Source of the DNA: a virus
DNA length: 21,039 nucleotides
Direction: 5' to 3' (one strand)
Virus record (IMG/VR): IMGVR_UViG_3300020187_000266
Location: 1 to 21,039 of that record
In this document: piece by piece, positions 1 through 18,568 of the stretch
Position numbering within the stretch: position 1 is the first letter of the stretch
Layout: every line of letters starts with the position of its first letter
The notes under the pieces: generated by a model
Databases searched by the model: none
The model's input: the letters and a program-made list of their open reading frames with translations, nothing else
What the model was told of the DNA's origin: nothing
Position numbers and translations under genes: made by a program

Positions 1-798
1 CTTATAAAGCCGGTATTAGTTTCATTTCGACCATACATATATTTCCCATCGTGTGAAAAACTAGGATAGTATGTTGCTGGTATAGTTATAGCACCTGTAT
101 AACTGGCTGTACTTAGATCATATGCAGTTGTCATTGTATATTTGTGTAGATTAGTATTTGCTGAATGTCCATGCATATATAAATGCAATCCATCTGAACT
201 GATTTCAAGTGAATAAGGATTGAGATCTTGGGTTCCAACATAAAATTCATTACCTGCCCAATATGCAGTGCTTACGTCAAATGGCGTTCTCATTATGTAT
301 TCTACAATCTTATCTGAACCAGTACCAACTACAAACATTTTCTTACCATCATAACTTAATACCAAATCACGTGGTGCACTGAAATGCGGCGCTACATGAA
401 AGTAACCTGTTTGTGTAACTGAAGTAAGATCATATGGCGTTGCCAATGTAAATTGATAGACATAATCATTGTGGGAAGATATATAAAATTTTGTACCATC
501 TGGTGTAAATTCTATACTATTTGCATTACTGTGCCCGATCTGATAATATAGATCATAATGTCGTACATATGTTGCAGTTGATATATCAAAAGGAGTTGAT
601 AGGGTATGCTCATACAGATAACGACTAGCATGCATAACAAACAATTTAGTACCATCTATTGAGATTCTACTATTGTACATATCACCAAACTGGAATGTTT
701 TTAAATCAAATACAAAATCTGTTTCAGTAAATTCCCATGTGGTTACAGAAGGAGTTGCGACTACTGCCGTAGTAGCCGAGCCATCTACTCTGAATTGG
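1..798 (-). repeat. Direct repeat copy A (798-nt period) in the propeller fibre gene
   Basis: Position 1 begins a sequence (cttataaagccggtattagt) that recurs at 799. The two stretches align without a length change for 798 nt (266 codons), with scattered substitutions only. Copy A probably continues beyond the window, so its true boundary is unknown. The period is an exact multiple of three, so the copies keep the frame and encode the same series of about five blades ending in a DGSATTAV-type linker. Confidence 0.85.
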
Positions 799-3383
799 CT
801 TATAAAGCCGGTATTAGTTTCATTTCGACCATACATATATTTTCCATCATGTGAAAAACTAGGATAGTATAATGCTGGTATAGTTATAGCACCTGTATAA
901 CTGGCTGTACTTAGATCATATGCAGATGTCATTGAATATTTGTGTAGTTTGGTATTTCCTGATGAATGTCCATGCATATATAAATTCAATCCATCTGAAC
1001 TGATTTCAAGTGAATAAGGATTGGAATCTTGGACCCCGACATAAATTTCATTACCTGCCCAATATGCAGTGGTTACATCAAATGAAGTGTTCATCACGTA
1101 TTCTATAATCTTATCTGAACTAGAACCCAATACAAACATTTTCTTACCATCATAACTTAGTACCAAATCACGTGGTGCAGTTAGATGTGACGCTACATGA
1201 AAGTTACCTGTTTGTGTAACTGAAGTAAGATCATATGCGTTTGTCAATGTAAATTGATAGACATAATCATTGTGGGAAGCTATATAAAATTTTGTGCCAT
1301 CTGGTGCAAATTCTATACTATTTGCATTACTGTACCCGATCTGATAATATAGATCATATTGTTGTACATATGTTGCAGTTGATATATCAAAAGGGGTTGA
1401 TAGGGTATGTTCTCGTAAATAACGTTGAGCATGCATAACAAACAATTTAGTACCATCTATTGAGGTTCTACTATTGTACATATCACTAAACTGTAATGTT
1501 TTTAAATCAAATACAAAATCTGTTTCAGTAAATTCCCATGTGGTTGCAGAAGGAGTTACAGCCACTGCTGTAGGAGTTGAGCCATCTGTTTTATATTGAT
1601 GTTGGTAGTTACTTGAAGACCGAAAATATGTATATGTACCGTCTGATGACATTGATAAATTTTCCAAAGGAGCATCAAAGTAATGTATTGTTGGATTGTT
1701 AATATTAGCTGTTGCTACTGCAAAGGGACTAGTTAAAGTATATTCATATAAAGCATCTGTCGTTTTACCACCCATATACAACTTGTTTCCATCATTAGAA
1801 TACTTTATAAAGCAAGGAGTATCATCTTGTATTCCTATATAAGTTCTTGCACCGGTCCAATATGCAGTTGCAATATCATGAGGGGATGGCATCACGAATT
1901 CATATACACGATCTGTCGCCGTGCCAGCAAAGATAAGTTTTTTACCATCTTCTGTAACATTCATCGCAGTTATTGATGATTCCAAATGACCCACATATAA
2001 TTTTACCTTTGAAGAATTATCAACAGTTGTTATATCATATGGTGTTGAAAGTGTCCATTGTGCAATATATCTATATGAAGTATGTGGATTGAACATATAT
2101 ATCTTTGTTCCATCATCTGATATCTGACAAAAATTTACTGACTGATTATCTAGTTGGGTTTTACAATTCCATTGACCGATATAGTTCGCAGTTACAATAT
2201 CAAATGCTGATGATAATTGATATTGATTTACATATGTTTTATTATCTGATACAGTATATAGGTTTAATCCATCACGTGAAAATGACAAATCTGAATTTCC
2301 CACGAATGTTCTTGCATCACTAATCACACTAGTAATATCAAATTTCCAAGTGTCTGAGGATGCAGTTGGTGTTACAATATCATCTGTTGTAGATGTTAGA
2401 CTATATTGAACCATTACTCTATTTTCTGAAGTGTAAAGTTTGGACCCATCAGATGATATAGTAGCATGTTCTGCACCTTTAATCCAGGTTTGTACATTAT
2501 TATATACTGTGGTGGATATATCAAACGGAGTTGATAAATCATATTCATATAACGTATCACTACCTGCATCAAAAATATACATTTTTTCGCCAGTTTTTGA
2601 CATAACTATGGAACGTGCATCTGTTACTTGATTACTAATATCAAATTGTGCATCATCAAAAACTGCGGTTGTAATATCATAAGGAGTTCCCAACGTAAAC
2701 TGGTGAACTTCATCACTATTACCACCAGTTGTAAACATTTTGGTTCCTGCTGCGTTCATTATCATAGAATATATAGTATTCTCATATGTCGAAATTTGTA
2801 AAGTTTTCGATGCATTACTTGCAGTTGAAATATCATATGGTGTACTCATATCAAGAGTTTGTATTGACGTAGATCCACCCAAATAAAGATGTTCGCCGTT
2901 TCCTGATATTGTTATCATTTCAACTTCAACTGCCATTTCTCCATAATAATAATAATTATCAACATAGGCAGCAGTTGAAAGATCAAATGGTATAGACATA
3001 TTGTATTGGAATACACGCTGTGATTGAGCAATATACATTTTAGTACCATCGTCACTCATACTCATATTATTAACATGTGCGGGTGTACCAGCAGAACCAG
3101 ATGATACTAGTAGACCTTTGTCTACCATCAAAGTTTTAAAGTCTTTATTTGTTTTTTCTAACTTTGCAGACCAAGCAGGGGTGACTAAACTAGTATTATC
3201 ACTTAGATGAGAAATATCAGTAGGGATATCTGATAACTTTGCAACTGCAAATCCAGAAACAGTAGTACCATCATGTGCAACCAATCTATTTGTGGTTGTG
3301 TCAAATGTAACTTCTCCCTGTTCACCAGTAAAGGTAGTATGTTCAGATGTTGATCCTCGTCTAAATTGAATTGTATATGCCAT
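1..3383 (-). CDS. Large tail-fibre-like protein: Mtd-type N-terminus plus beta-propeller repeats (3' end outside window)
   Basis: The frame is open from the ATG at 3383 to the left edge (first whole codon at 3), giving at least 1127 residues with no stop. An AGGAG-like site (GGAGA) lies 8 nt upstream of the ATG. Residues 1-45 (MAYTIQFRRGSTSEH, then TGEQGEVTF and AHDGTT) match the N-terminal domain of the major tropism determinant family and closely resemble the start of the neighbouring gene at 4018. From about residue 105 the protein consists of roughly 50-residue repeats. Each has an S-x-DGTK-hydrophobic-Y core, a Q/E-Y-x-L strand and an STPFDISTA-type turn, the pattern of beta-propeller blades. 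The last two visible blocks are 266-residue near-copies holding about five blades each. Known of the family: the Mtd N-terminus anchors receptor-binding proteins to the tail. Inferred: a receptor-binding or adhesin fibre at the tail tip. The true C-terminus, which may carry the receptor-contact domain or a maturation domain, cannot be seen. Confidence 0.8.
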   Translation of the reverse strand, partial: MAYTIQFRRGSTSEHTTFTGEQGEVTFDTTTNRLVAHDGTTVSGFAVAKLSDIPTDISHLSDNTSLVTPAWSAKLEKTNKDFKTLMVDKGLLVSSGSAGTPAHVNNMSMSDDGTKMYIAQSQRVFQYNMSIPFDLSTAAYVDNYYYYGEMAVEVEMITISGNGEHLYLGGSTSIQTLDMSTPYDISTASNASKTLQISTYENTIYSMIMNAAGTKMFTTGGNSDEVHQFTLGTPYDITTAVFDDAQFDISNQVTDARSIVMSKTGEKMYIFDAGSDTLYEYDLSTPFDISTTVYNNVQTWIKGAEHATISSDGSKLYTSENRVMVQYSLTSTTDDIVTPTASSDTWKFDITSVISDARTFVGNSDLSFSRDGLNLYTVSDNKTYVNQYQLSSAFDIVTANYIGQWNCKTQLDNQSVNFCQISDDGTKIYMFNPHTSYRYIAQWTLSTPYDITTVDNSSKVKLYVGHLESSITAMNVTEDGKKLIFAGTATDRVYEFVMPSPHDIATAYWTGARTYIGIQDDTPCFIKYSNDGNKLYMGGKTTDALYEYTLTSPFAVATANINNPTIHYFDAPLENLSMSSDGTYTYFRSSSNYQHQYKTDGSTPTAVAVTPSATTWEFTETDFVFDLKTLQFSDMYNSRTSIDGTKLFVMHAQRYLREHTLSTPFDISTATYVQQYDLYYQIGYSNANSIEFAPDGTKFYIASHNDYVYQFTLTNAYDLTSVTQTGNFHVASHLTAPRDLVLSYDGKKMFVLGSSSDKIIEYVMNTSFDVTTAYWAGNEIYVGVQDSNPYSLEISSDGLNLYMHGHSSGNTKLHKYSMTSAYDLSTASYTGAITIPALYYPSFSHDGKYMYGRNETNTGFISQFRVDGSATTAVVATPSVTTWEFTETDFVFDLKTFQFGDMYNSRISIDGTKLFVMHASRYLYEHTLSTPFDISTATYVRHYDLYYQIGHSNANSIEFTPDGTKFYISSHNDYVYQFTLATPYDLTSVTQTGYFHVAPHFSAPRDLVLSYDGKKMFVVGTGSDKIVEYIMRTPFDVSTAYWAGNEFYVGTQDLNPYSLEISSDGLHLYMHGHSANTNLHKYTMTTAYDLSTASYTGAITIPATYYPSFSHDGKYMYGRNETNTGFI
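799..1596 (-). repeat. Direct repeat copy B (798-nt period) in the propeller fibre gene
   Basis: This is the partner of the copy at 1-798 and is nearly identical in DNA. Differences cluster in a few codons, for example YLYEHT against YLREHT and DGSATTAVVATP against DGSTPTAVAVTP. Upstream in the gene (about 1597-3080) the same blade pattern continues but is clearly more diverged. The duplication that made copies A and B is therefore younger than the repeat family itself. Confidence 0.85.
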
Positions 3384-3547: not shown

Positions 3548-4018
3548 TTACCAAGATGTTTGAACAACGGATCTTACCCAAAGATTTGGCGCTATGCATA
3601 CATACATAAATTCTCCTACTACTCTAACATCACCTTTATTTCCGTCAGAATTTGGCGAAGATGGAGCAGATGTGTTATTGTATACTTCCATACTACGATC
3701 AACATTATCACTACTCATGCTTTTATCACCAATATGAATAGTTCCTGCACTAAGATAAAGGTCTCTGAATTTCTTCTCTGCACTACCAAGATCATACGCT
3801 TCGTTAGTATCTGGTTTAATGTGACCATCCACGTTGCCATTTAAAAAGGTTGAAACGTCACTATCAGTATATGCTGCTTGGCTATGACCACCTGCAGTAG
3901 TCCCGTCATGAACAACCAATGAATTAGTTTCTGTATTTACTGTAACTTCACCGATCTCACCAGTAAAGGTTGAATGTTCAGCCGTTGTACCGCGTCTGAA
4001 TTGTACTGCATATGCCAT
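3548..4018 (-). CDS. Short tail-fibre protein with Mtd-like N-terminus
   Basis: This 156-residue protein starts at an ATG preceded by AGGAGA. Residues 1-45 (MAYAVQFRRGTTAEH, TGEIGEVTV, VVHDGTT) form the N-terminal docking domain of the major tropism determinant family. They are almost the same as the start of the gene at 3383, so the two are paralogues at this end. A middle segment near residues 68-95 (KPDTNEAYDLGS, KFRDLYLSAGTIHIG) is a motif common in tail-fibre and structural proteins of marine T4-like phages. The end (EFMYVCIAPNLWVR) is a short strand-rich motif typical of the same proteins. There is no receptor-binding C-type lectin domain, so this is not a full Mtd. It is probably a small fibre or adaptor protein of the tail tip. 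It lies between two propeller genes, with its own candidate promoter upstream and a terminator downstream. Confidence 0.8.
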   Translation of the reverse strand: MAYAVQFRRGTTAEHSTFTGEIGEVTVNTETNSLVVHDGTTAGGHSQAAYTDSDVSTFLNGNVDGHIKPDTNEAYDLGSAEKKFRDLYLSAGTIHIGDKSMSSDNVDRSMEVYNNTSAPSSPNSDGNKGDVRVVGEFMYVCIAPNLWVRSVVQTSW

Positions 4019-4128: not shown

Positions 4129-7100
4129 TCACAATGAAGTGAAAATGTAAGATTTACCTGAATTACTACCAAGAGCGTCATCTTCATATCGTGCACCGAC
4201 AATAAGTTTTTCATTTGAAACTGCAACTGAGTAACCGAATTGATCACTATCTCCACTGCCATCTGCATTTATGTTATCAATAGTTCTAGTATGATTACCT
4301 GTTAATGCATCAAATATGAATACTTTTCCACTATCAGTAACACCGGTTTCATCTTCTAGATAAGAACCCACAATGATTTGGTTATCTGAAATGTCTATTG
4401 CATTAGCAAATGCATCTCCTGTAGAATTATTTGGATTATCTATTGTATGCAATAGAGACAATGTGTGTGTGTCATACACATATGCTCTACCTTTACCAGC
4501 ATTTGCATTTTGTGCACCAACTACAAATTTATCACCATCAATTGCAACACTTAGACCGAAATACTCCTGGCCTACGCCGGCTGGGTTGTAGATTGGTTGA
4601 ATAGTGTTACTTGGTATGTGCATTATATATATTGCACTGGAGTAACTATCGGTTCTAACATATGCAGCACTCCATATTGCATAATCACCAGAAACATCAA
4701 CCTCACGCCCCATATTAAATCTCTGTGTTCTGGATGGATTGTCATATTTCTTGATATGATTAGTTGGGTTAGTACCTGTCATGTCATATATATAAACTGC
4801 GCCACCATTTGCATCACTAGCATTGTAATTTACACCAGATTGTTCTTCACCAGGAGCACCTACAATTGCGTATTTCCCGTCAATCGCAACAGAATTTCCA
4901 AAATTATCATATTGTTCATTTGGACTCGGATGTGGTATATGATGCAGCAACGAATAATCACTTCTATTAAATACATAAACAGAACCAGACCCATACATGC
5001 CAGTTGTTGATTTATCGTTATTTGCACCAACTATAATATAATCTTCAGATATATCTACTGAATACCCAAATTGATCACTTGATTTTCCATTGGCTAATCC
5101 ATCTGGATTAATAAGTGTATGCAGTAATGCACCAGTTGATGAATTTACTACGTATACAACACCAGAATTGCTTTGACCACTAGCATCTTCTGCATATGCA
5201 CCAATTACTGCTGTATCGCCATGAACTGCTACTGCGGAACCGAAGTAATCATTTGCTGTACTATCTGTTTCATTGAAATTGTCAATCGTCAATGTAGAAG
5301 ATATAGAAGTCCAATCGTAATCTGCAAACCTTTCAACACTACCACTACCACTAGTAACTGGTATACCTGCATTGCCATATGAGTCTGTAAATGCAATACT
5401 ATAAGTTACGTTACCTAGAGCATCGTTGGTATCTACTATATATGATGCAGTCCATTTGTTAGTATATCGTTCGGTATTAACATAAGATGATGATGTATTG
5501 GTTACAGTTGCACCTCCAGAATAGAATGTAACTACTGGTGTACCAATTATTTTATCAGCAATAAATGTAACTGTAACTTCATTTCCTGTTACCGCTCTAG
5601 TAGAGTCTTGATTACTTGATGCTAAATTAACATCTGATAATGTTGGTAATGTAGTAGAATCATCTGCGATTGAATCAAATATATATGCTTTTCCTGAGTT
5701 ATTACCAGATGTTTGAGATAATGCTTCCGCGTCATCTTCATATCTTGCACCAACAATGATCCTTTCATATGATATTGCAACTGAGTAACCGAATTCGTCA
5801 GAGGTTTGGTCTGGGCCAAATGCATTTGGATTATACAATGTCTTCAATTCTGAACCAGTTAATGCATCAAATATATATGCCACGCCCGCAGATTCTTGAT
5901 AATCTGTATTCCAAGGACCTGAATTATATACGTCTTCTAGATAAGAACCCACAATAACTCTATTATCTGAAATGTCTATTGCATTAGCAAATGCATCTCC
6001 TGTAGAATTATTTGGATTATCTATTGTATGCAATAGAGCTAATGTGTGTGTGTCATACACATATGCTCTACCTTTACCAGCATTTGCATTTTGTGCACCA
6101 ACTACAAATTTATCACCATCAATTGCAATACTTAGACCGAAATACTCCTGGCCTATGCCCGCTGGGTTGTAGATTGCTTTAATATTGTTACTTGGTATGT
6201 GCATTATATATATTGCACTAGAGTAACTATCGGTTCTAACATATGGAGCACTCCATATTGCATAATCACCAGAAACATCAACCTCACGCCCCATTTGATA
6301 TCTCTGTGTTCTGGATGGATTGTCATATTTCTTGATATGATTAGTTGGGTTAGTACCTGTCATGTCATATATATAAACTGCGCCACCATTTGCATCACTA
6401 GCATTGTAATTCACACCAGATTGTTCTTCATTTGGTGCACCTACAATTGCGTATTTCCCGTCAATCGCAACAGAATGTCCAAAATTATCATATTGTTCAT
6501 TTGGACTCGGATGTGGTATATGATGTAGTAATCCATAAGTAGCCCTATTAAATACATAAACAGAACCAGCCCCATACATGCCAGTTGTTGATTTATCGTT
6601 ATTTGCACCAACTATTATATAATCTTCAGATATATCTACTGAATACCCAAAATTATCACTTGATTTTCCATTGGCTAATCCATCTGGATTAATAAGTGTA
6701 TGCAGTAATGCACCAGTCACTGAATTCACTACGTATACAACACCAGAATTGCTTTGACCACTAGCATCTTCTGCATATGCACCAATTACTGCTGTATCGC
6801 CATGAACTGCTACTGCGTAACCGAAGTAATCATTTGCTGTACTACCTGTTTCATTGAAATTGTCAATCGTTAACATTGAAGGATGTGCTGACCAATTTGC
6901 TATGCTTTGTATATCAACACTACCACTACCACTAGTAACTGGTATACCTGCATTGCCATATGAGTCTGTAAATGAGATACTATAAGTTACATTACCTTTA
7001 GTATCATTAGTATCTACTATATATGTTGCAGTCCATTTGTTAGTATATAGTTCGGTATTAACATAAGATGGTGTATTGGTTACAATTGCACCACCAGAAT

Positions 7101-10100
7101 AGAATGTAACTATTGGTGACGATATTAATTTATCTGAAATTAAAGTTATTATAACTTCATTTCCTGCTACTGCTCTAGTAGAATCTGTATTGTTTGATGC
7201 TAAATTAACATCTGATAATGTTGGTAATGTAGTAGAATCATCTGCGATTGAATCAAATATATATGCTTTTCCTGAGTTATTACCAGATGTTTGAGATAAT
7301 GCTTCAGCATCATCTTCGTATCTTGCACCAGCAATGATCCTTTCATATGATATTGCAACTGAGTAACCGAATTGGTCATCGGTTTGGTCTGGGCCAAATG
7401 CATTTGGATTATATAATGTCCGCATTTGCAAACCAGTTAATGCATCAAATATATATGCCACGCCCGCAGATTCTTGATAATCTGCATTCCAAGGACCTGA
7501 ATTATATACGTCTTCTAGATAAGAACCCACAACAACTCTATTATCTGAAATGGCTATTGCATTAGCAAATGCATCTCCTGTAGAATTATTTGGATTATCT
7601 ATTGTATGCAATAGAGCTAATGTGTGCGTGTCATACACATATGCTCTACCTTTACCAGAATTTGCATTTTGTGCACCAACTACAAATTTATCACCATCAA
7701 TTGCAACACTTAGACCGAAATACTCCTGGCCTATGCCGCCTGGGTTGTAGATTGCTTTAATATTGTTACTTGGTATGTGCATTATATATATTGCACTGGA
7801 GTAACTATCGGATCTAGTATAAGGGGCGCTCCATATTGCATAATCACCAGAAACATCAACATCCTGCCCCATGCGATATCGATGTGTTCTAGATGGATTG
7901 TCGTATCTCTTGATATAATTAGTTGGGTTAGTACCTGTCATGTCATATATATAAACTACGCCACCATTATTGTTATTACCATCAGTGTTGCTCACATTAT
8001 ATTGTTCTTCATTTGGCGCACCTACAATTGCGTATTTCCCGTCAATCGCAACAGAATGTCCAAAATTATCATAAGTTTCATTTGGACTCGGATGTGGTAT
8101 ATGATGTAGTAATGAATAATCACTTCTATTAAATACATAAACAGAACCAGCCCCATACATGCCAGTTGTTGATCTATCGCCACTTGCACCAACTATAATA
8201 TAATCTTCAGATATATCTACTGAATACCCAAAATTATCACTTGATTTTCCATTGGCTAATCCATCTGGATTAATAAGTGTGTACAGCAATTCACCAGTCA
8301 ATGAATTTACTACGTATACAACACCAGAATCGCTTTGACCACTAGCATCTTCTGCAAATGCACCAATTACTGCTGTATCGCCATGAACTGCTACTGCGTA
8401 ACCGAAGTAATCATTAGCACTTGCACCAACCGAATTTGGATTGTCAATCGTTAACATTGAAGGAGTTGCTGACCAATTTGCTATGTTTTGTATATCAACA
8501 CTACCACTACCACTAGTAACTGGTATACCTGCATTGCCATATGAGTCTGTAAATGCAATACTATAAGTTACATTACCTTTAGTATCATTAGTATCTACTA
8601 TATATCTTACATTCCATATATTACTATTGCGATCAATTGTATTCTGATATATGTCATATTGGGCAGCAGTTGATACATTAGTAACAGAATTTCCGCCAGA
8701 ATAGAATGTAACTACTGGTGTGCCAATTATTTTATCAGCAATAAATGTAACTATGACTTCATTTCCTGCTACCGCTCTAGTAGAATCTGTATTATTTGAT
8801 AGTAACTTAACGTCTGATAATGTTGGTAACGTAGCAGAATCATCTGCGATTGAATCAAATATATATGCCTTTCCTGAGTTATTACCAGATGTTTGAGATA
8901 ATGCGTCAGCATCATCTTCATATCTTGCACCAGCAATGATCCTTTCATATGATATTGCAACTGAGTAACCGAATTGGTCATCGGTTTGGTCTGGGCCAAA
9001 TGCATTTGGATTATACAATGTCTGTAATTCTGAACCAGTTAATGCATCAAATATATATGCAACGCCCGCAGATACTTGATAATCTGTATTCCAAGGACCT
9101 GAATTATATACGTCTTCTAGATAAGAACCCACAATAACTCTATTATCTGAAATATCTACTGCACTAGCAAATGCATCTTCTGTAGAATTATTTGGATTAT
9201 CTATTGTATGCAATAGAGCTAATGTGTTTGTGTCATATATATATGCTCTACCTTTACCAGAATCTGCATTTTGTGCACCAACTACAAATTTATCACCATC
9301 AATTGCAAGACTTGTACCGAAATACTCCTGGCCTATGCCGCCTGGGTTGTAGATTGCTTTAATATTGTTACTTGGTATGTGCATTATATATATTGCAGGG
9401 GCGAAATTGGTGGTTCTAACATATGGAGCACTCCATATTGCATAATCACCAGAAACATCAACATCACGCCCCATTTGATATCTCTGTGTTCTAGATGGAT
9501 TGTCGTATCTCTTGATATAATTAGTTGGGTTAGTACCTGTCATGTCATATATATAAACTACGCCACCATTATTGTTATTACCATCAGTGTTGCTCACATT
9601 ATATTGTTCTTCATTTGGCGCACCTACAATTGCGTATTTCCCGTCAATCGCAACAGAATGTCCAAAATTATCATAAGTTTCATTTGGACTCGGATGTGGT
9701 ATATGATGTAGTAATGAATAATCACTTCTATTAAATACATAAACAGAACCAGCCCCATACATGCCAGTTGTTGATCTATCGCCACTTGCACCAACTATAA
9801 TATAATCTTCAGATATATCTACTGAATACCCAAAATTATCACTTGATTTTCCATTGGCTAATCCATCTGGATTAATAAGTGTGTACAGCAATTCACCAGT
9901 CAATGAATTTACTACGTATACAACACCAGAATCGCTTTGACCACTAGCATCTTCTGCAAATGCACCAATTACTGCTGTATCGCCATGAACTGCTACTGCG
10001 TAACCGAAGTAATCATTAGCACTTGCACCAACCGAATTTGGATTGTCAATCGTTAACATTGATGCAACACTAGACCAATTTGCTATGTTTTGTATATCAA

Positions 10101-13100
10101 CACTACCACTACCACTAGTAACTGGTATACCTGCATTGCCATATGAGTCTGTAAATGCAATACTATAAGTTACGTTACCTAGAGCATCGTTGGTATCTAC
10201 TATATATGTTGCAGTCCATTTGTTAGTATATAGTTCGGTATTAACATAAGATGGCGTATTGTTTACAATTGAACCACCAGAATAGAATGTAACTATTGGT
10301 GACGATATTATTTTATCAGCAATAAATGTAACTATGACTTCATTTCCTGCTACCGCTCTAGTAGAATCTGTATTATTTGATGCTAAATTAACATCTGATA
10401 ATGTTGGTAACGTAGCAGAATCATCTGCGATTGAATCAAATATATATGCCTTTCCTGAGTTATTACCAGATGTTTGAGATAATGCTTCCGCGTCATCTTC
10501 ATATCTTGCACCCACAATAGCATAGTCGCCACTTAGCGAAACTGAGAAACCGAATTGGTCATCGGTTTGGTCTGGGCCAAATGCATTTGGATTATATAAT
10601 GTCCGCATTTGCAAACCAGTTAATGCATCAAATATATATGCAACGCCCGCAGATTGTTGATAATCTGCATTCCAAGGACCTGAATTATATACGTCTTCTA
10701 GATAAGAACCCAAAATAACTCTATTATCTGAAATATCTACTGCATTAGCAAATGCATCTTCTGTAGAATTATTTGGATTATCTATTGTATGCAATCGAGC
10801 CAATGTGTGTGTGTCATACACATATGCTCTACCTTTACCAGAATTTGCATTTTGTGCACCAACTACAAATTTATCACCATCAATTGCAAGACTTGTACCG
10901 AAATAATCCTGGCCACTGCCGCCTGGGTTGAAGATTGGTTTAATAGTGTTACTTGGTATGTGCATTATATATATTGCAGGGGCGAAATCGGTGGTTCTAA
11001 CATATGGAGCACTCCATATTGCATAATCACCAGAAACATCAACATCACGCCCCATTTGATATCTCTGTGTTCTAGATGGATTGTCATATTTCTTGATATA
11101 ATTAGTTGGGTTAGTACCTGTCATGTCATATATATAAACTGCGCCACCATTATTGTTATAACCATCAGTGTTGCTCACATTATATTGTTCTTCATTTGGT
11201 GCACCTACAATTGCGTATTTCCCGTCAATCGCAACAGCATGTCCAAAATTATCATAATTTTCATTTGGACTCGGATGTGGTATATGATGTAGCAACGAAT
11301 AATCACTTCTATCAAATACATAAACAGAACCAGCCCCAGAATATGAAACTTGGGCATGGTCACCACTTGCGCCAACTATGATATAATCTTCAGATATATC
11401 CACTGAATTCCCAAAATTATCATTTGCTTTTCCATTGCCTATTCCATCTGGATTAATAAGTGTATGCAGTAATGCACCAGTCAATGAATTTACTACGTAT
11501 ACAACACCAGAATTGCTTTGATTACTATAATCTTCTGCATATGCACCAATTACTGCTGTATCGCCATGAACTGCTACTGCGTAACCGAAGTAATCATTTG
11601 CTGTACTACCTGTTTCATTGAAATTGTCAATCGTTAACATTGAAGGAGTTGCTGACCAGTTCGGTATCGGCGAAAGTGTTACATTTCCGGTGATATTATT
11701 TGATGCAGTATCTCCCGCGATCCCATCAACATCCGTAAATGTAATACTGTATGTTATATTTCCAGGAGTATCATCTGTATGTACTACGAAACTTGCTTTC
11801 CATGTATCATTAAACGCATTGAGACTTTCGTAAGTTACTGTATTAGTAATGTCATACTCAACTTCATTATTGACAGTTTTAAATGTTACTGTGGGCTGTG
11901 GTATATTTTTTGATGCTTTCATGGTAACACTTACTATATTACCTTCTACTGCATTAGTAGGGTCTTGATTGCTTGAAGAAAGTATTATACTATCTAATGT
12001 TGGGCTTGCACCTACTAATCTTGGCACAGAATCAAATATGTATGCTTTTCCTGATCTACTACCAGATGTTTGGGATAATGCATCTTCATCATCTTCTTCC
12101 CACGCACCACCAATTGCATAATCACCACTTATTGCTACTGAGTAACCGAACTTGTCGCTTTCATGTACACCAAATGCATTTGGATTTGAAATAGTCTGCA
12201 TGTGTGAAAAATCTGTTCTTGAGAATATATATATTTCGCCTGAATTTTCATGTGTATCTACATTCCAAATACCTGCTTGAGATTCTGATATATACGGAGA
12301 ACCAACTATGATATAATCTTCTGAGATATCAACTGAAGACCCAAATCGGTTGCTCGTAAGACTACCCGTGCGAGGATTGTTCAATGTCCCTAGTAATGCG
12401 CCAGTTTCAGTGTTATAAACATATGCGATACCCTCATCGGTAGTATTATTAACTGTATCATCATAATTATAAGCGGTAACTACTGCATGATTGCCCATAA
12501 TTGCAACTTTGGCGCCAAAATAAGAATTCGCTGTCCAACTGGCAGTTGGTGGGGTGATCAAAGATGTTGTATTAGTTACAATGTTATGTATATAGAACCC
12601 GGCTCTGCCAGAGGTACCCCTAGCATAAGGGGCGCCCCATACTGCATAATCACCAGAAACATCAACATCAAGCCCCATATTATATCTAGCAGTTCTGGAT
12701 GGATTGTCATATTTCTTGATATAATTAGTTGGGTTAGTACCTGTCATGTCATATATATAAACTGCGCCACCATTTGCATCACTATCATTGGCTCCCACAT
12801 TATATTGTTCTTCATTTGGTGCACCTACAATTGCGTATTTCCCGTCAATCGCAACAGCATGTCCAAAACGATCATAATGTTGATTTGGACTCGGATGTGG
12901 TATATTATGTAGCAACGAATAATCACTTCTATCAAATACATAAACAGAACCAGCCCCAGAATATGAAACTTGGGCATGGTCACCACTTGCGCCAACTATG
13001 ATATAATCTTCAGATATATCCACTGAATTCCCAAAATTATCATTTGCTTTTCCATTGCCTATTCCATCTGGATTAATAAGTGTATCTAGCAATTCACCAG

Positions 13101-13671
13101 TTGATATATTTACTACGTATACAACACCAGAATTGCTTTGATTACTATAATCTTCTGCATATGCACCAATTACTGCTGTATCTCCGTGAACTGCTAATGC
13201 GTAACCGAAGTAATCATTAGCACTTGTACCAACCGAATTTGGATTGTCAATCGTTAACATTGTAGGAGTTGCTGACCAATTTTGTACACCATCTACACCT
13301 TGACTTGCCGGAATTATCACAGGTCCACGTTTGAATCTACCACGGTTAGAATAAAACATTGTTTGGTCAATTGCTACTGTATTTTCTGATACAATGCCGT
13401 TATCCCATTCACCACGTAAAGGGTTTCCAATTATACCAAAATCAATAGAGTCGTCTGAACTAGGAGATCCAAATTTTTCTTTTGGTTTATTGGGAATTTT
13501 TTTTCTATGACCTGCTCCAATTGCACCGGACAGTTGGTGAGCCTCTGTAATAGAACCACGGTCTGCTATTTCTAAAAAATCTAATAGTTTTCTAACTTTA
13601 ATTTTACTCAGCGTAGTGTCTGGTGAAAATTGCCCTTTAATATCCAACCCATTGATCCGTATCTTTGACAT
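4129..13671 (-). CDS. Giant 3180-residue FG-GAP beta-propeller protein, probable tail fibre or adhesin
   Basis: The ATG at 13671 follows AGGAG by 8 nt and a TATAAATA by 30 nt. Residues 1-130 form a unique N-terminus of unknown fold. Six blocks follow, starting near residues 131, 671, 1198, 1732, 2259 and 2786. Each block holds seven repeats of the FG-GAP type (for example FGYAVAVHGDTAVIGA, FGYSVDISEDYIIVGA, MGREVDVSGDYAIWSAPY), a number that predicts one closed seven-bladed propeller like that of integrin alpha chains. Blocks 1-5 end in a domain of about 100 residues (ending near YSIAFTDSYGNAG) that looks Ig-like. Block 6 is only the propeller and closes the protein (YIFTSL). No signal peptide, membrane segment or enzyme motif is visible. 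D/N-rich loops (NTDGNNNNGG) recall metal sites but are not canonical. The context of tail genes upstream and Mtd-N fibres downstream suggests a virion fibre for host contact. A large cell-surface adhesin made late in infection is less likely. Confidence 0.85.
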   Translation of the reverse strand: MSKIRINGLDIKGQFSPDTTLSKIKVRKLLDFLEIADRGSITEAHQLSGAIGAGHRKKIPNKPKEKFGSPSSDDSIDFGIIGNPLRGEWDNGIVSENTVAIDQTMFYSNRGRFKRGPVIIPASQGVDGVQNWSATPTMLTIDNPNSVGTSANDYFGYALAVHGDTAVIGAYAEDYSNQSNSGVVYVVNISTGELLDTLINPDGIGNGKANDNFGNSVDISEDYIIVGASGDHAQVSYSGAGSVYVFDRSDYSLLHNIPHPSPNQHYDRFGHAVAIDGKYAIVGAPNEEQYNVGANDSDANGGAVYIYDMTGTNPTNYIKKYDNPSRTARYNMGLDVDVSGDYAVWGAPYARGTSGRAGFYIHNIVTNTTSLITPPTASWTANSYFGAKVAIMGNHAVVTAYNYDDTVNNTTDEGIAYVYNTETGALLGTLNNPRTGSLTSNRFGSSVDISEDYIIVGSPYISESQAGIWNVDTHENSGEIYIFSRTDFSHMQTISNPNAFGVHESDKFGYSVAISGDYAIGGAWEEDDEDALSQTSGSRSGKAYIFDSVPRLVGASPTLDSIILSSSNQDPTNAVEGNIVSVTMKASKNIPQPTVTFKTVNNEVEYDITNTVTYESLNAFNDTWKASFVVHTDDTPGNITYSITFTDVDGIAGDTASNNITGNVTLSPIPNWSATPSMLTIDNFNETGSTANDYFGYAVAVHGDTAVIGAYAEDYSNQSNSGVVYVVNSLTGALLHTLINPDGIGNGKANDNFGNSVDISEDYIIVGASGDHAQVSYSGAGSVYVFDRSDYSLLHHIPHPSPNENYDNFGHAVAIDGKYAIVGAPNEEQYNVSNTDGYNNNGGAVYIYDMTGTNPTNYIKKYDNPSRTQRYQMGRDVDVSGDYAIWSAPYVRTTDFAPAIYIMHIPSNTIKPIFNPGGSGQDYFGTSLAIDGDKFVVGAQNANSGKGRAYVYDTHTLARLHTIDNPNNSTEDAFANAVDISDNRVILGSYLEDVYNSGPWNADYQQSAGVAYIFDALTGLQMRTLYNPNAFGPDQTDDQFGFSVSLSGDYAIVGARYEDDAEALSQTSGNNSGKAYIFDSIADDSATLPTLSDVNLASNNTDSTRAVAGNEVIVTFIADKIISSPIVTFYSGGSIVNNTPSYVNTELYTNKWTATYIVDTNDALGNVTYSIAFTDSYGNAGIPVTSGSGSVDIQNIANWSSVASMLTIDNPNSVGASANDYFGYAVAVHGDTAVIGAFAEDASGQSDSGVVYVVNSLTGELLYTLINPDGLANGKSSDNFGYSVDISEDYIIVGASGDRSTTGMYGAGSVYVFNRSDYSLLHHIPHPSPNETYDNFGHSVAIDGKYAIVGAPNEEQYNVSNTDGNNNNGGVVYIYDMTGTNPTNYIKRYDNPSRTQRYQMGRDVDVSGDYAIWSAPYVRTTNFAPAIYIMHIPSNNIKAIYNPGGIGQEYFGTSLAIDGDKFVVGAQNADSGKGRAYIYDTNTLALLHTIDNPNNSTEDAFASAVDISDNRVIVGSYLEDVYNSGPWNTDYQVSAGVAYIFDALTGSELQTLYNPNAFGPDQTDDQFGYSVAISYERIIAGARYEDDADALSQTSGNNSGKAYIFDSIADDSATLPTLSDVKLLSNNTDSTRAVAGNEVIVTFIADKIIGTPVVTFYSGGNSVTNVSTAAQYDIYQNTIDRNSNIWNVRYIVDTNDTKGNVTYSIAFTDSYGNAGIPVTSGSGSVDIQNIANWSATPSMLTIDNPNSVGASANDYFGYAVAVHGDTAVIGAFAEDASGQSDSGVVYVVNSLTGELLYTLINPDGLANGKSSDNFGYSVDISEDYIIVGASGDRSTTGMYGAGSVYVFNRSDYSLLHHIPHPSPNETYDNFGHSVAIDGKYAIVGAPNEEQYNVSNTDGNNNNGGVVYIYDMTGTNPTNYIKRYDNPSRTHRYRMGQDVDVSGDYAIWSAPYTRSDSYSSAIYIMHIPSNNIKAIYNPGGIGQEYFGLSVAIDGDKFVVGAQNANSGKGRAYVYDTHTLALLHTIDNPNNSTGDAFANAIAISDNRVVVGSYLEDVYNSGPWNADYQESAGVAYIFDALTGLQMRTLYNPNAFGPDQTDDQFGYSVAISYERIIAGARYEDDAEALSQTSGNNSGKAYIFDSIADDSTTLPTLSDVNLASNNTDSTRAVAGNEVIITLISDKLISSPIVTFYSGGAIVTNTPSYVNTELYTNKWTATYIVDTNDTKGNVTYSISFTDSYGNAGIPVTSGSGSVDIQSIANWSAHPSMLTIDNFNETGSTANDYFGYAVAVHGDTAVIGAYAEDASGQSNSGVVYVVNSVTGALLHTLINPDGLANGKSSDNFGYSVDISEDYIIVGANNDKSTTGMYGAGSVYVFNRATYGLLHHIPHPSPNEQYDNFGHSVAIDGKYAIVGAPNEEQSGVNYNASDANGGAVYIYDMTGTNPTNHIKKYDNPSRTQRYQMGREVDVSGDYAIWSAPYVRTDSYSSAIYIMHIPSNNIKAIYNPAGIGQEYFGLSIAIDGDKFVVGAQNANAGKGRAYVYDTHTLALLHTIDNPNNSTGDAFANAIDISDNRVIVGSYLEDVYNSGPWNTDYQESAGVAYIFDALTGSELKTLYNPNAFGPDQTSDEFGYSVAISYERIIVGARYEDDAEALSQTSGNNSGKAYIFDSIADDSTTLPTLSDVNLASSNQDSTRAVTGNEVTVTFIADKIIGTPVVTFYSGGATVTNTSSSYVNTERYTNKWTASYIVDTNDALGNVTYSIAFTDSYGNAGIPVTSGSGSVERFADYDWTSISSTLTIDNFNETDSTANDYFGSAVAVHGDTAVIGAYAEDASGQSNSGVVYVVNSSTGALLHTLINPDGLANGKSSDQFGYSVDISEDYIIVGANNDKSTTGMYGSGSVYVFNRSDYSLLHHIPHPSPNEQYDNFGNSVAIDGKYAIVGAPGEEQSGVNYNASDANGGAVYIYDMTGTNPTNHIKKYDNPSRTQRFNMGREVDVSGDYAIWSAAYVRTDSYSSAIYIMHIPSNTIQPIYNPAGVGQEYFGLSVAIDGDKFVVGAQNANAGKGRAYVYDTHTLSLLHTIDNPNNSTGDAFANAIDISDNQIIVGSYLEDETGVTDSGKVFIFDALTGNHTRTIDNINADGSGDSDQFGYSVAVSNEKLIVGARYEDDALGSNSGKSYIFTSL
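7883..8460 (-). repeat. 578-nt identical segment, copy in repeat unit 4
   Basis: Compared by eye base for base with 9485-10062 (offset 1602), no mismatch is seen over 578 nt, while both flanks differ at once (the low-coordinate flank gcgatatcga against gatatctc; the high-coordinate flank aggagttg against tgcaacac). It covers blades 1-3 and the start of blade 4 of the propeller. Identity at synonymous sites marks a very recent copy or conversion. Confidence 0.85.
9485..10062 (-). repeat. 578-nt identical segment, copy in repeat unit 3
   Basis: This is the partner of 7883-8460. Beyond the identical segment, units 3 and 4 diverge in blade 4: unit 3 has the TTNFAPAIY variant and unit 4 the SDSYSSAIY variant. 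The identity therefore does not extend over whole units. Confidence 0.85.
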
Positions 13672-13700: not shown

Positions 13701-13708
13701 TATTTATA
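13701..13708 (-). promoter_or_regulatory. Candidate late promoter TATAAATA for the giant gene
   Basis: The minus strand reads TATAAATA, an exact match to the T4 late promoter octamer, 30 nt upstream of the ATG at 13671. It is followed by an AGGAG ribosome site. It sits directly after the terminator at 13739-13765, as expected for a new late transcription unit. Confidence 0.7.
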
Positions 13709-13738
13709 ATAATATAGCAATTAATATATATTAATATA

Positions 13739-13765
13739 AAAAAGGTACCATAATGGTACCTTTTT
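13739..13765 (-). terminator. Bidirectional intrinsic terminator ending the tail/packaging operon
   Basis: AAAAAGGTACC and GGTACCTTTTT pair perfectly around a 5-nt ATAAT loop, so a T run follows the stem on either strand. It is about 33 nt past the stop at 13798 and separates the seven-gene operon from the giant fibre gene. Confidence 0.85.
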
Positions 13766-13797: not shown

Positions 13798-14376
13798 TTA
13801 TCTGTAGTATCTTGGTGCCTTTGGTCTTTCTGTGCCTGGAGTACTTTTAAATTTTGCAGGTCCAGTCTTATCTGTGAAGGGGTAAGGCCCAACATAAATA
13901 CCTTTCGGATCATTGCCACCTTTTGTATCTTTCGATGTATTTTTTCTTGGTTTAGTATTTTTGACTGGCCATTTTATAATTTCAGATTCTTCTAAGTCAA
14001 AGTCTGCTATTAAAGCTTCATAAATTTCGTCTTCATTTACTGAATACTCAAGTGGGTTATCACCTGCACTTGGCTTTAGTGTTTTCTTTTGGCGTGAAAT
14101 GGAGTTAGCAGTCTTTTTAGAAAAATCGTCTAAGTCAAGTTCGTCATTAGCAGGTGTTGCTTGATATTCTGCTGCTGCGTCCAGTCTATGTGGTTCATCA
14201 TCGCATCCGCAACTATCATCACATCCACAGCCACTGTCCATTGGTGTAATTTCAACAGTCTTACCTGCAAGTGTTAACATTCTCATTAATTCTTCTGGAT
14301 GCTCAGTACTCACGTTTGTTGTAGTAACGGCTTTTCCGTTATTATCAGTCATAGTTAGGTTATAATGTTTGCTCAT
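13798..14376 (-). CDS. 192-aa protein with CxCxxxCxC cluster, function unknown
   Basis: The ATG at 14376 overlaps the previous stop as ATGA, with GGAG a few bases upstream, so the two genes are probably translationally coupled. Residues 1-45 look like a small folded segment (TEHPEELMRMLTLAGK helix flanked by strands). Then SGCGCDDSCGCDDE places four cysteines at about residues 50, 52, 56 and 58 between acidic residues, suggesting a metal site. The remainder is low-complexity and charged, with a Pro/Gly/Tyr-rich end (GIYVGPYPFTD, PRYYR). No family is recognised with confidence. Its place as the last gene of a tail/packaging operon suggests a virion or head-assembly protein, but this is inference from position alone. 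Confidence 0.75.
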   Translation of the reverse strand: MSKHYNLTMTDNNGKAVTTTNVSTEHPEELMRMLTLAGKTVEITPMDSGCGCDDSCGCDDEPHRLDAAAEYQATPANDELDLDDFSKKTANSISRQKKTLKPSAGDNPLEYSVNEDEIYEALIADFDLEESEIIKWPVKNTKPRKNTSKDTKGGNDPKGIYVGPYPFTDKTGPAKFKSTPGTERPKAPRYYR

Positions 14377-15503: not shown

Positions 15504-15965
15504 CTATTTCTTCTTTCTAGGCTTGCGTACTTTTGGTTTTTTTGTATTTTGGTATATATCACCTTCATTCAAAACTCTGAATTTCATTCCTCTTTTTTTG
15601 GCCCAGGATGTTGCGGCTTCCCATTTTGCATAATTTATTGCAACTTGTGCTTGGTCACCCCTACCCTTTGCAAACTCTAGTTTTGTTTGCGACGATGGTT
15701 TTATTTCTACAAGTTCGGCATGCTTTTTTCCGCTTGCATCTATATATGTTATAACAAAATCAGGAACATATCCTGTAACTTTTCCGGTAAGTGGGTTCTG
15801 ATATGTTATTTTTACAGGTTCACTGGCCCAAGCAACAATGTTTGGATTTTCATCACAAAAATTCATAAATGTATGTTCCCAACTACTTCTAAAAGTAGGA
15901 GTCTTTCCGCCAGCATATTTCTGGGCGTTTTTAATCGGATACTTACCTTGATGAAATTTAGTCAT
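15504..15965 (-). CDS. 4: Head completion protein, gp4-like nuclease of the TnsA type
   Basis: This 153-residue product is nearly the length of T4 gp4 (150) and follows its layout. The N-terminal GKYPIKNAQKYAGG is followed by FRSSWEHTFMNFCDENPNI and W-A-S-E-P. The acidic and lysine residues expected of the nuclease core are all present: E30 in the SWE motif, D69 in PDF (68-70), and E87/K89 in EIK (87-89). The WEAATSWAKKRGMKFRVL segment near residues 113-130 matches the C-terminal part of the family, and a very basic tail (KKPKVRKPRKKK) could bind DNA. In T4 this protein completes DNA-filled heads before tail joining. The start overlaps the previous stop as ATGA. Confidence 0.85.
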   Translation of the reverse strand: MTKFHQGKYPIKNAQKYAGGKTPTFRSSWEHTFMNFCDENPNIVAWASEPVKITYQNPLTGKVTGYVPDFVITYIDASGKKHAELVEIKPSSQTKLEFAKGRGDQAQVAINYAKWEAATSWAKKRGMKFRVLNEGDIYQNTKKPKVRKPRKKK

Positions 15966-16225
15966 TTAATAATCGCTCTTGCAATATATTTATTCGGTTT
16001 TTTTTCTGACATTTTACCAGTAACATACCCATATCGCAAAGCGTTATTAATAATGAATGATCCTAGATCATTGAGTTTAAAATCAGTTGATACTTGATCA
16101 ACTAGATACGAAGCATCAACTCCATATTGTTTGGCGGTTGTTAATATTTGATTGGCAAAAACTTTAGCACGTTCAACCGAAAATCCTTTTTTTACAAGTT
16201 TAGCAACAAGAACATCAATATTCAT
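15962..16225 (-). CDS. 87-aa small helical protein, function unknown
   Basis: The ATG at 16225 overlaps the stop of the upstream gene (ATGA) and is preceded by GGAGG, and its own stop overlaps the next start in the same way. These two couplings make it a real gene despite its size. Residues 1-40 form probable helices (DVLVAKLVKKGFSVERAKVFANQILTTA has a heptad-like spacing). The end is basic (YVTGKMSEKKPNKYIARAI). No known domain is recognised. Position between a tube-like baseplate protein and a head-completion nuclease suggests a small virion or assembly protein. Confidence 0.7.
   Translation of the reverse strand: MNIDVLVAKLVKKGFSVERAKVFANQILTTAKQYGVDASYLVDQVSTDFKLNDLGSFIINNALRYGYVTGKMSEKKPNKYIARAIIK
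15987..15994 (-). promoter_or_regulatory. Weak candidate late promoter AATAAATA inside the 87-aa gene
   Basis: The minus strand reads AATAAATA within codons for Asn-Lys-Tyr, 22 nt before the ATG at 15965. The spacing resembles the other sites in this window, but it is wholly coding and may be accidental. Confidence 0.2.
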
Positions 16226-17883
16226 CTAATGCCTCCTGTTTTATTTCTTAAATTTGTTATATTATTTTGAGTGGCTGAACGAGACTTAGAATCAAATTGA
16301 ATTCCAGGTGCACGCAAATCTTTATCTGAGAAATCTGAACTTGGCGTAGAAAATGTCGGCGAGGTTGATACAACGGTAGTACGTGGTCCTGTTGTATTAT
16401 TTCCAAGCCTAGTAGATTTTAATAATGCATCTCTTATAAAATCACCACCGACACCGAATTTACTTTGGGAAGTTTCTAGTGCAGTTTGTATTCTACCAAT
16501 TCCAGTATTACCGCCCAGTATTCCCTGTGCAATCGGGGATGTTATGTTATCTAAGTTAATTGATCTTCCATTTAAAAACGAAGTTACCAATTCGTTTGAT
16601 ATTAAATTTGCTAGATCGATGCCAGTGAATCTATCAGTGCCGCCATTCGCAAGTCTTGCATTTGGAAAACCAGCAACATTGGGATACAATATATCACTAG
16701 AGTACGGATTATCAGGAAATCTATTCCTACTATTTAAAGCATTTTGCATCTCACCGAAATCATCATACTGCTTCAATGAAGATGCTGGCATAGGTATAGC
16801 CGATGCAATCTCATCAGCAAATAGCTTTTCTGCTTCTGCTTTTTCTTCTGGTGTTGCATTTTGATTTGATTTTACATATTTTAAAGTACCACTTAATTTT
16901 TTAAGTCTACTTAATTGTTCTCTTGCGTTGGTATCAGAAGAAACACCAAAAACTTCATTATTTTCAGCGATTTGATCTAGTCCATTAAGATCATTATCGA
17001 TCTGTCCTAAGTTTTTACCATCTGCTAATCCAGAAATCATCGAGTCTAATTTTTCATTAGTTCTAATGTTAGAAAGAAGTTTTAATGCATTGTTCACACT
17101 GTTACTTGGATCTAAATCTTCTAAAATAAATTCTAGTCCTTGTTTCATCCAGTCTGGAACAACAACATTATTTTGTGGTATTCCAAATATAATATTCTCA
17201 GGTTGCAATTGAAGATCAATCGTTCGCAATGATGAATCTGCATAATCACTACCACTAAATGTAATATTGGTTAAAAGAGGATTTATTATTTCTATTTTTT
17301 GAATAGAACCATTTGAGGTAGTATCAACTTGCTCTAATTGTTCTCTTCCTCTTGGATCTCTATCTATTCCTTGTCCGAATGATCCAAAGAAATGATATAT
17401 AACTATTTTTTTAAAACTTCTGTAATATCCTGTGTCTTCGGCATTCGATGGGAGAACACGACCAGAGGTTCTATCTCTAATCGTACTATCCAAAACACCC
17501 GCTTCTGTGCCAAGATTGGCATTTTTGAAAAAGTTACTGTAAAGTTCATTCGCAACTGTAAATCCACTTCCATCAGTCTTATCATAAAGACTGATGGAAA
17601 CTTCAGGAAAATTAACGTAAATGGGCAAGTGTACTTTTTTGCCATATTTGTCAACCGTTACTGTTTCAGTTGAAATAGTTATTGGCGAAACTGTTTTGGC
17701 AAATGATGACATACCAGATGATAAACCAGTTATAGTATCTATAAATTCTACAAACCACATGTCACCCATTTTGGGAGCATTTGTGATATATTCACCAGAA
17801 AAACCAAACTTGCTGGCGGCTTGATTACTACCTGCTAGAATGGTCCTATCTGTACGTTCATTTTGTAGAGACTTGTTCGCCAT
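16222..17883 (-). CDS. Tail-tube-fold baseplate protein, gp54-like (tentative)
   Basis: The 553-residue product begins at an ATG 13 nt after the tail tube gene. Residues about 40-235 look like the tail-tube fold shared by gp19 and the baseplate tube initiator gp54. A strand-rich start (MWFVEFIDTIT) leads to PITISTETV, then LPIYVNFPEVSISLYD followed by the helix NELYSNFF, and later IQKIEIINPLLTNITFS with a closing LQLQPENI. The rest (240-553) is longer than in T4 gp54 (320 residues total) and mixed helical and polar, with Asn/Gly-rich stretches near the end. Known of the family: gp54 nucleates tube polymerisation on the baseplate. Location directly after the tube gene fits a tube-contacting role. 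gp48 (tube cap) is an alternative. Confidence 0.55.
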   Translation of the reverse strand: MANKSLQNERTDRTILAGSNQAASKFGFSGEYITNAPKMGDMWFVEFIDTITGLSSGMSSFAKTVSPITISTETVTVDKYGKKVHLPIYVNFPEVSISLYDKTDGSGFTVANELYSNFFKNANLGTEAGVLDSTIRDRTSGRVLPSNAEDTGYYRSFKKIVIYHFFGSFGQGIDRDPRGREQLEQVDTTSNGSIQKIEIINPLLTNITFSGSDYADSSLRTIDLQLQPENIIFGIPQNNVVVPDWMKQGLEFILEDLDPSNSVNNALKLLSNIRTNEKLDSMISGLADGKNLGQIDNDLNGLDQIAENNEVFGVSSDTNAREQLSRLKKLSGTLKYVKSNQNATPEEKAEAEKLFADEIASAIPMPASSLKQYDDFGEMQNALNSRNRFPDNPYSSDILYPNVAGFPNARLANGGTDRFTGIDLANLISNELVTSFLNGRSINLDNITSPIAQGILGGNTGIGRIQTALETSQSKFGVGGDFIRDALLKSTRLGNNTTGPRTTVVSTSPTFSTPSSDFSDKDLRAPGIQFDSKSRSATQNNITNLRNKTGGIR

Positions 17884-17896
17884 TTTATATTACCTA

Positions 17897-18493
17897 TTAT
17901 CCAGATAAACTTGAATCATTAGTGAAGCCAGGGGATGGCATCAAATCGGTATCAGTTAAAACAGCGTTATCATATTGAAGTGTCAAATTGATTGTAACTG
18001 CATCTGACACTGAGTAATCACTTTGTGAATAATCTGTGTTTGTTAGGAAACAACCTTCTAGTTGCCACTGCTCAATTGGATTACCATCATTGCCATTTAG
18101 TGTTTCAATAAGTGTCGAAAATTTGTAGTTTGTTCCTGCAAGTGGACCAGTTTGATTTCTGTGATCTAGTTGTGATTGTACTTGACGGCCAACTAATTTA
18201 GTTAGTGAGTTAGCAACATCATCACGTAGTGTGATTGTGATTGGTTCCCAAGTGTGCTTTCCCATCATGTACATACGAGAGTTGTATGAATCAATTGGAA
18301 TAGACTCGTGTGAGACTTTGGGACGGGTTACATTCATAACTTGTCTTGTGAAGTCTGTTGTATTCTCTGATAGGCCACCAAAACCTGCAACTTGTACTCT
18401 AAAACGATAGTTTAATTTAGGCTGTAGAATACCTGTACCTGTTGCAGCGCCGCTATCTGTTGGAACACCGAAATTTTGTAATGTTCTTGCCAT
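17897..18493 (-). CDS. 19: Tail tube protein, gp19-like
   Basis: The 198-residue product starts at an ATG with AGGAGA about 10 nt upstream. After a short flexible N-terminus, residues 25-45 (KLNYRFRVQVAGFGG) open the tube-protein barrel. They are followed by VTRPKVSHESIPIDSYNSRMYM and WEPITITLRDDV, then WQLEGCFLTNTDYS and VTINLTLQYDNAVL, the core strand order of contractile-tail tube proteins. It is somewhat longer than T4 gp19 (163). It lies right after the sheath gene, the usual gp18-gp19 order. Its product forms the inner tube through which DNA passes. A terminator upstream and a late promoter at 18530 make it the first gene of a seven-gene operon, suited to high expression. Confidence 0.9.
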   Translation of the reverse strand: MARTLQNFGVPTDSGAATGTGILQPKLNYRFRVQVAGFGGLSENTTDFTRQVMNVTRPKVSHESIPIDSYNSRMYMMGKHTWEPITITLRDDVANSLTKLVGRQVQSQLDHRNQTGPLAGTNYKFSTLIETLNGNDGNPIEQWQLEGCFLTNTDYSQSDYSVSDAVTINLTLQYDNAVLTDTDLMPSPGFTNDSSLSG

Positions 18494-18529
18494 AATAATA
18501 TCTCCTGATATAGTTTTGCGTTATACAAG

Positions 18530-18537
18530 TATTTATC
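18530..18537 (-). promoter_or_regulatory. Candidate late promoter GATAAATA for the tail tube operon
   Basis: The minus strand reads GATAAATA 37 nt before the ATG at 18493 and just past the sheath terminator. A weaker variant, ACTAAATA, lies next to it at 18540-18547. The non-coding position and spacing support a late promoter driving gp19 and the genes after it. Confidence 0.6.
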
Positions 18538-18568
18538 AGTATTTAGTAAAATTAAAGTTGTAGTTAAT

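Follow-up and report, generated by a model that had tools for sequence, protein, structure and literature searches.

A 3180-residue chain of six predicted integrin-like propellers behind a modular N-terminal anchor, a candidate virion adhesin of a jumbo-type phage group

The DNA analyzed here (the window) is an entire virus record of 21,039 nt, and it carries a gene for a 3180-amino-acid protein composed of a distinct N-terminal region followed by six predicted seven-bladed propellers of the integrin alpha type. The protein is probably, with a chance of about two in three, a modular late virion adhesin in which an anchor carries a multivalent chain of binding heads. The coordinates of the gene, its parts, and the nearby features are collected in Table 1.

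Table 1. Coordinates of the six-propeller gene, its parts, and neighboring features in the window
Feature	Position	Strand	Remarks
Gene for the 3180-aa six-propeller protein	4129..13671	-	ATG start, one open frame, no internal stop
N-terminal region, residues 1-130	13282..13671	-	First ~110 aa form a shared docking-type module (alignment A3)
Block 1, residues 131-670	11662..13281	-	Propeller and Ig-like linker; second half of another subtype than blocks 2-6
Block 2, residues 671-1197	10081..11661	-	Propeller and Ig-like linker; modeled singly
Block 3, residues 1198-1731	8479..10080	-	578-nt exact repeat with block 4
Block 4, residues 1732-2258	6898..8478	-
Block 5, residues 2259-2785	5317..6897	-
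Block 6, residues 2786-3180	4132..5316	-	Terminal propeller without linker; blades 6-7 unlike other blocks
TATAAATA, exact T4-type late promoter sequence	13701..13708	-	At -37 relative to the start codon; identical in L009 and L010
Terminator-like hairpin, GGTACC-ATTAT-GGTACC, then a T run	13737..13765	-	Read from sequence; splits the gene from the upstream module
Upstream neighbor of the gene, final gene of the conserved module	13798..14376	-	132-408 aa among relatives
Conserved structural module: tail tube, second tube-like protein, small protein, gp4-type head-completion protein	15504..18493	-	Pfam, PHROG, relatives

The whole protein was matched to the Pfam family FG-GAP_2 (PF14312) with an E value of 4.3e-280 and 904 bits against a cut-off of 23, and its repeats, seven per propeller, scored over the curated threshold, placing it within that family. 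A repeat model made from the protein's own sequence returned 42 strong FG-GAP repeats (E ≤ 2e-17 each) together with one chance match at E = 0.16. The strong repeats grouped by seven into six blocks, of which the first five are each followed by an Ig-like linker of ~110 to 115 aa, while the sixth terminates at the stop codon; residues 1 to 130 are unique and nonrepeated. The count of 42 repeats, the five linkers, and the unique N-terminus put forward in the initial annotation were therefore all borne out. Protein identity to block 2 was 62 to 86% for the remaining five blocks, and the composition is strongly acidic (362 acidic versus 151 basic residues), with no cysteine. Neither Pfam nor PHROG gave a match to the T4 long or short tail fiber families (gp12, gp34-gp37), and by Pfam the Mtd_N domain (PF18454), found in two downstream genes, is missing from the N-terminus. 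Weak PHROG and Pfam matches of the repeats (Rhomboid, ETM, toxin, and others) were rejected as compositional noise, with no stretch passing on its own.

A sequence search of the PDB gave no credible relative for either a block or the anchor, and a fold search was therefore needed. Block 2 was modeled with AlphaFold using ten related sequences (pLDDT 77.8, pTM 0.76). The model contained 28 propeller strands as seven sets of four, with the N-terminal first strand completing blade 7 as its final strand and so closing the propeller, followed by a beta sandwich of six to seven strands. In this block, the one modeled singly, the expected closure of seven blades was thus predicted. The best-matching solved structures were integrin alpha heads (Foldseek E value of 1.8e-17; Z of 35 to 37, ~3.0 Å over ~355 residues), so that the proposed comparison with FG-GAP and integrin propeller families came out positive for both. 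When the linker was included, ~430 residues aligned at 9 Å, indicating that the angle between the propeller and the Ig-like domain differs from that in integrin. A model of residues 1 to 1088 formed two propellers with the intervening linker, in support of the suggested beads-on-a-string order with Ig-like spacers; its confidence was low (pLDDT 66.8, pTM 0.45), so that the relative placement of the beads in it is tentative, and residues 1 to 137 had no fixed fold in it (pLDDT ~25).

The likeness to integrin alpha lies in the seven-bladed FG-GAP propeller and in the Ig-like domain that comes after it, as in the integrin propeller and thigh. Unlike integrin alpha, the phage chain lacks calcium-binding loops, calf and membrane parts, and a beta partner, and it has six heads per chain, the last of which stops at the stop codon. 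No DxDxDGxxD calcium motif and no RGD was found in the 3180-aa protein, and in the block 2 model strands 1 and 2 are joined by hairpin loops of 2 to 3 residues. Calcium-dependent binding of the integrin type was dropped as a candidate given the absent DxDxDGxxD motif.

The N-terminal region was found to behave as a module separate from the propellers. Residues 1 to 110 aligned (alignment A3) with small proteins and with the starts of larger ones encoded at the corresponding gene position in related phages, and at least one copy of this anchor was present in 34 of the 45 related contigs reaching beyond the upstream neighbor, a count that does not represent 34 independent events since some contigs and loci overlap in origin. 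The anchor occurred alone, as a protein of 85 to 116 aa (L027-L031, L041, L053, L057, L083, L088, and L092), or fused to proteins of 262 to 432 aa without known domains (L072, L094, and L105), to propeller proteins (L058 and L059), or to the array type (L009, L010, and the window). In L113 it preceded exactly seven FG-GAP repeats, that is, one propeller, in a protein of 529 aa. In one pair, L059 and L058, the ~480 nt that begin at the start codon of the anchor gene are ~85 to 98% identical in DNA, against ~40 to 58% on either side. This is one anchor with different heads and apparent recombination at both edges, the pattern of swapped receptor-binding proteins, and a conserved N-terminal anchor with an exchanged C-terminal part is also what marks the modular receptor-binding proteins of phages. 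The idea that the N-terminus is a docking domain was accordingly strengthened by its occurrence alone or fused and by the L059/L058 swap.

Searches with the anchor gave little outside this group. It had no Pfam family match, and the single PHROG match among the forms tested was nonsignificant (E = 0.018); a tblastn search of 50,697 phage records found nothing, and a profile run against 17 chosen records gave matches in this phage group and in L113 alone. When alignments A1 and A2, of the block and the anchor, were used to search viral contigs, only L009 and L010 came back, and alignment A3 was too diverse to serve as a query.

FG-GAP propellers as such were found in several other phages, and by their BFVD matches the proteins of the S-TIM5 and Atu_ph07 type have the same fold as those of the window. 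The protein of cyanophage S-TIM5 (H6WG31, 407 aa), annotated as virion structural, likewise has a propeller built of seven FG-GAP_2 repeats (26% identity, TM-score 0.71 by target, 3.3 Å) but differs in having a single propeller, no common anchor, and other gene surroundings. The "hemagglutinin" of Agrobacterium phage Atu_ph07 and Sinorhizobium phage AP-J-162 (gp213/gp214, 375/394 aa), which was likened to human integrin 3VI3 in AP-J-162 (PMC11242549), is also a single integrin-like propeller from a T4-related jumbo phage, but with one propeller per protein and 20% identity. The 3692-aa and 3162-aa hypothetical proteins of the cultured Sinorhizobium phage Phosso are giant FG-GAP arrays of another jumbo phage, with divergent repeats without clean near-identical blocks, LamG or glycine-rich parts, another genome location, and no common anchor. 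The two Phosso genes are adjacent (L112, 18339-38979), and one has a LamG-type end. A 1480-aa protein of C48C1 (Kyanoviridae), encoded near a baseplate hub/tail lysozyme gene, has about two tandem FG-GAP propellers, in contrast to six, and a different N-terminus. FG-GAP repeats also occur in Vibrio phage nt-1 ("FG-GAP repeat protein") and S-SCSM2R, and a 7022-aa virion structural protein of S-MbCM6 (L025, 1-15215) includes a single short stretch with five to six FG-GAP repeats. FG-GAP propellers are also present in giant viruses of eukaryotes, for which a role in attachment has been suggested (PMC11467894). Among the papers searched, none dealt with FG-GAP in phage tails. Given the proteins of S-TIM5, nt-1, Atu_ph07/AP-J-162, and Phosso, the label of an undescribed system was too strong, and an undescribed architecture is the better description: the propeller unit is already known, and the new parts are the regular six-head chain, the recombination of its blocks, and the shared anchor. 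Both the anchor module and the regular recombining chain appear to be undescribed so far.

The genes of the window lie on the minus strand. A sheath gene, truncated at one window end, is followed by genes for the tail tube, a second tube-like protein, an 87-aa protein, the gp4-type head-completion protein, and three small proteins; the 3180-aa protein comes next, and a pair of Mtd_N proteins closes the series, the second of them truncated at the other window end. The tail tube was assigned to phrog_4542 (E = 3e-55) and the gp4-type head-completion/head-closure protein to phrog_218 (E = 8e-40), and the order of sheath, tube, second tube, and head completion recurs in PA5oct and GAP32. The placement in a T4-like tail region therefore held as to the sheath, tube, and head-completion genes upstream, but the 3180-aa gene adjoins that module and is not among baseplate or long-tail-fiber genes. 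The upstream neighbor of the gene has an insert of ~76 aa in L009 relative to L010. By tail tube, the nearest isolates were jumbo phages of the Phosso/PA5oct/Atu_ph07 kind (43 to 48% identity; Phosso, 48%; Atu_ph07, 44%), and a stretch of sheath DNA is common to the window, GAP32, and CBB. Contigs with tubes 80 to 99% identical to that of the window reached 342 kb, and the group is therefore of the jumbo type; it is probably marine, judging from related contigs and isolates and not from the sample record. A search of genome contigs gave nothing related to the tail tube, and hence no host was assigned.

An exact late-promoter sequence stands ahead of the gene (Table 1), and [TG]ATAAATA was found in the upstream region of most other anchor genes. 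Since the motif was found twice in the AT-rich window against 4.65 expected by chance, the argument rests on position and conservation, which point to late expression. The hairpin between the gene and the upstream module was not flagged by a consensus scan.

The propellers were found to evolve faster than their surroundings. Between the window and L009, dN/dS was 0.43 in propeller 1, compared with 0.31 in the N-terminus and 0.10 in the linker, and it ranged from 0.01 to 0.13 across seven neighboring genes, including those for sheath, tube, and head completion. In integrins, the ligand face is made up of the 2-3 and 4-1 loops. In two between-phage comparisons, these loops had 63/184 and 65/184 variable positions (34 to 35%) versus 7/48 and 6/48 (13 to 15%) for the opposite 1-2 and 3-4 loops (Fisher p = 0.008 and 0.0025), and among the blocks inside the array the bias was weak (p = 0.2 and 0.049). 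Change between phages therefore seems to concentrate on the predicted integrin-type ligand face, a pattern that is suggestive only, because loops vary fast in many proteins and the comparisons were two.

The blocks themselves form a mosaic. Blades 1 to 3 of block 1 were 84 to 100% identical in DNA to block 2 and 75 to 83% identical to the same place in L009, whereas the second half of block 1 was ~48 to 73% identical to block 2 and 82 to 98% identical to L009. In L010, the second half of the first block matched block 2 of the window and not block 1. Together with the 578 nt shared by blocks 3 and 4, this mosaic is characteristic of blocks that convert one another and undergo unequal exchange.

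A mechanism can be proposed on this basis. The N-terminal ~110 residues would anchor the protein on the particle, at the tail, neck, or head, and the remainder would be a flexible chain of six integrin-alpha-like propellers with Ig-like spacers, each showing its variable 2-3 and 4-1 loops to the host cell. Six weak contacts could then sum to a firm, multivalent attachment, and recombination between blocks would alter their number and content, with the anchor receiving whole heads by exchange. The repeat architecture, the fold, the modularity of the anchor, block recombination, the late-promoter signal, and the one-sided change are read from sequence or structure prediction; that the protein sits in the virion, that it binds a ligand and does so multivalently, and what the ligand is, we infer. 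In Pseudomonas phage PA5oct, mass spectrometry has detected homologues of the sheath, the tube proteins, and g14373. FG-GAP propellers have nonadhesive roles too. Close relatives lack the 3180-aa gene or keep nothing of it but the anchor, which means that the phage group can do without it.

Thin hairs on the capsid or tail, serving in spacing, diffusion, or nonspecific sticking without a specific receptor, would be an unlikely alternative. Related jumbo phages do have whiskers, on the capsid in Atu_ph07 and on the tail in CBB (PMC6102473), the former related through its tube and the latter through the common stretch of sheath DNA, and the gene comes after the neck/tail module and not in a fiber cluster. 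Propellers that evolve far faster than their own linkers, and mostly on one face, argue against such a passive structure, as does the swapping of heads behind an anchor, which fits recognition better. The anchor was also not found near the Atu_ph07 tail genes or in GAP32, the relative of CBB that was searched. FG-GAP proteins are known from bacterial surfaces, and the product might instead be a late protein released from the infected cell or shown on it, such as one that binds surface polymers when the cell lyses or that blocks superinfection. This is distinctly improbable, since no signal peptide or membrane segment was evident (highest 19-residue hydropathy, 1.55), the gene lies behind structural genes, and relatives are annotated as virion proteins.

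An adhesin of six heads also presupposes that the array is real and not the product of blocks duplicated, collapsed, or misjoined in assembly. Blocks 3 and 4 share 578 identical nucleotides, against at most 179 nt for other exact repeats between blocks, and the L009 and L010 contigs break off where block 1 ends or close to that point. Part of the identity of blocks 3 and 4 could come from assembly, and as the 578-nt repeat is longer than a short read, a miscount at these blocks is possible. Nevertheless, the blocks differ (68 to 93% DNA identity) with distinctive first and last members, the frame is open across 9.5 kb, and L009 and L010 have the same gene in the same place, reaching at least the start of a second unit or its linker. 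An artefact, which the initial annotation had named among the things that would refute it, is thus very unlikely; the architecture stands on the block differences and the open frame, and the exact count of six carries the caveat of the 578-nt repeat.

If the adhesin reading is true, phages use integrin-type heads for host binding on a multivalent chain whose length recombination can change. A propeller-chain type would be added to the mostly trimeric, fibrous adhesins of T4-like phages, and a handle would be gained on host recognition by marine jumbo phages. The natural series of 0, 1, and 6 heads behind one anchor makes the effect of valency on attachment testable, and the anchor may serve as a marker for adhesins missed by standard family libraries. 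More tentatively, there may be a wider integrin-like-head adhesion system in which a so far unnamed docking module bears anything from no propeller to several and block recombination tunes how many heads there are and what their faces are like, and which possibly forms the whiskers of related jumbo phages.

Other repeat proteins were noted nearby. Downstream in the window (3-3383, minus strand), a 1127-aa protein truncated at the window end begins with Mtd_N and continues in WD40/PD40-like repeats whose period is 267 aa, a second and different propeller-like array in the same phage; its relative in L028 has at least 2575 aa and a 264-aa period. Between the two arrays lies a 156-aa Mtd_N protein (3548-4018, minus strand), and in that slot the relatives L027-L031 and L041 encode an Mtd_N-like protein of 216 aa and lack an FG-GAP array. 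In L113, a 1081-aa protein (6990-10235) seems to join divergent, FG-GAP, and GTKMY-type propellers, and a 913-aa protein (15799-18540) has long AARxAAEEAE repeats and a C-terminus that by eye resembles an outer-membrane barrel.
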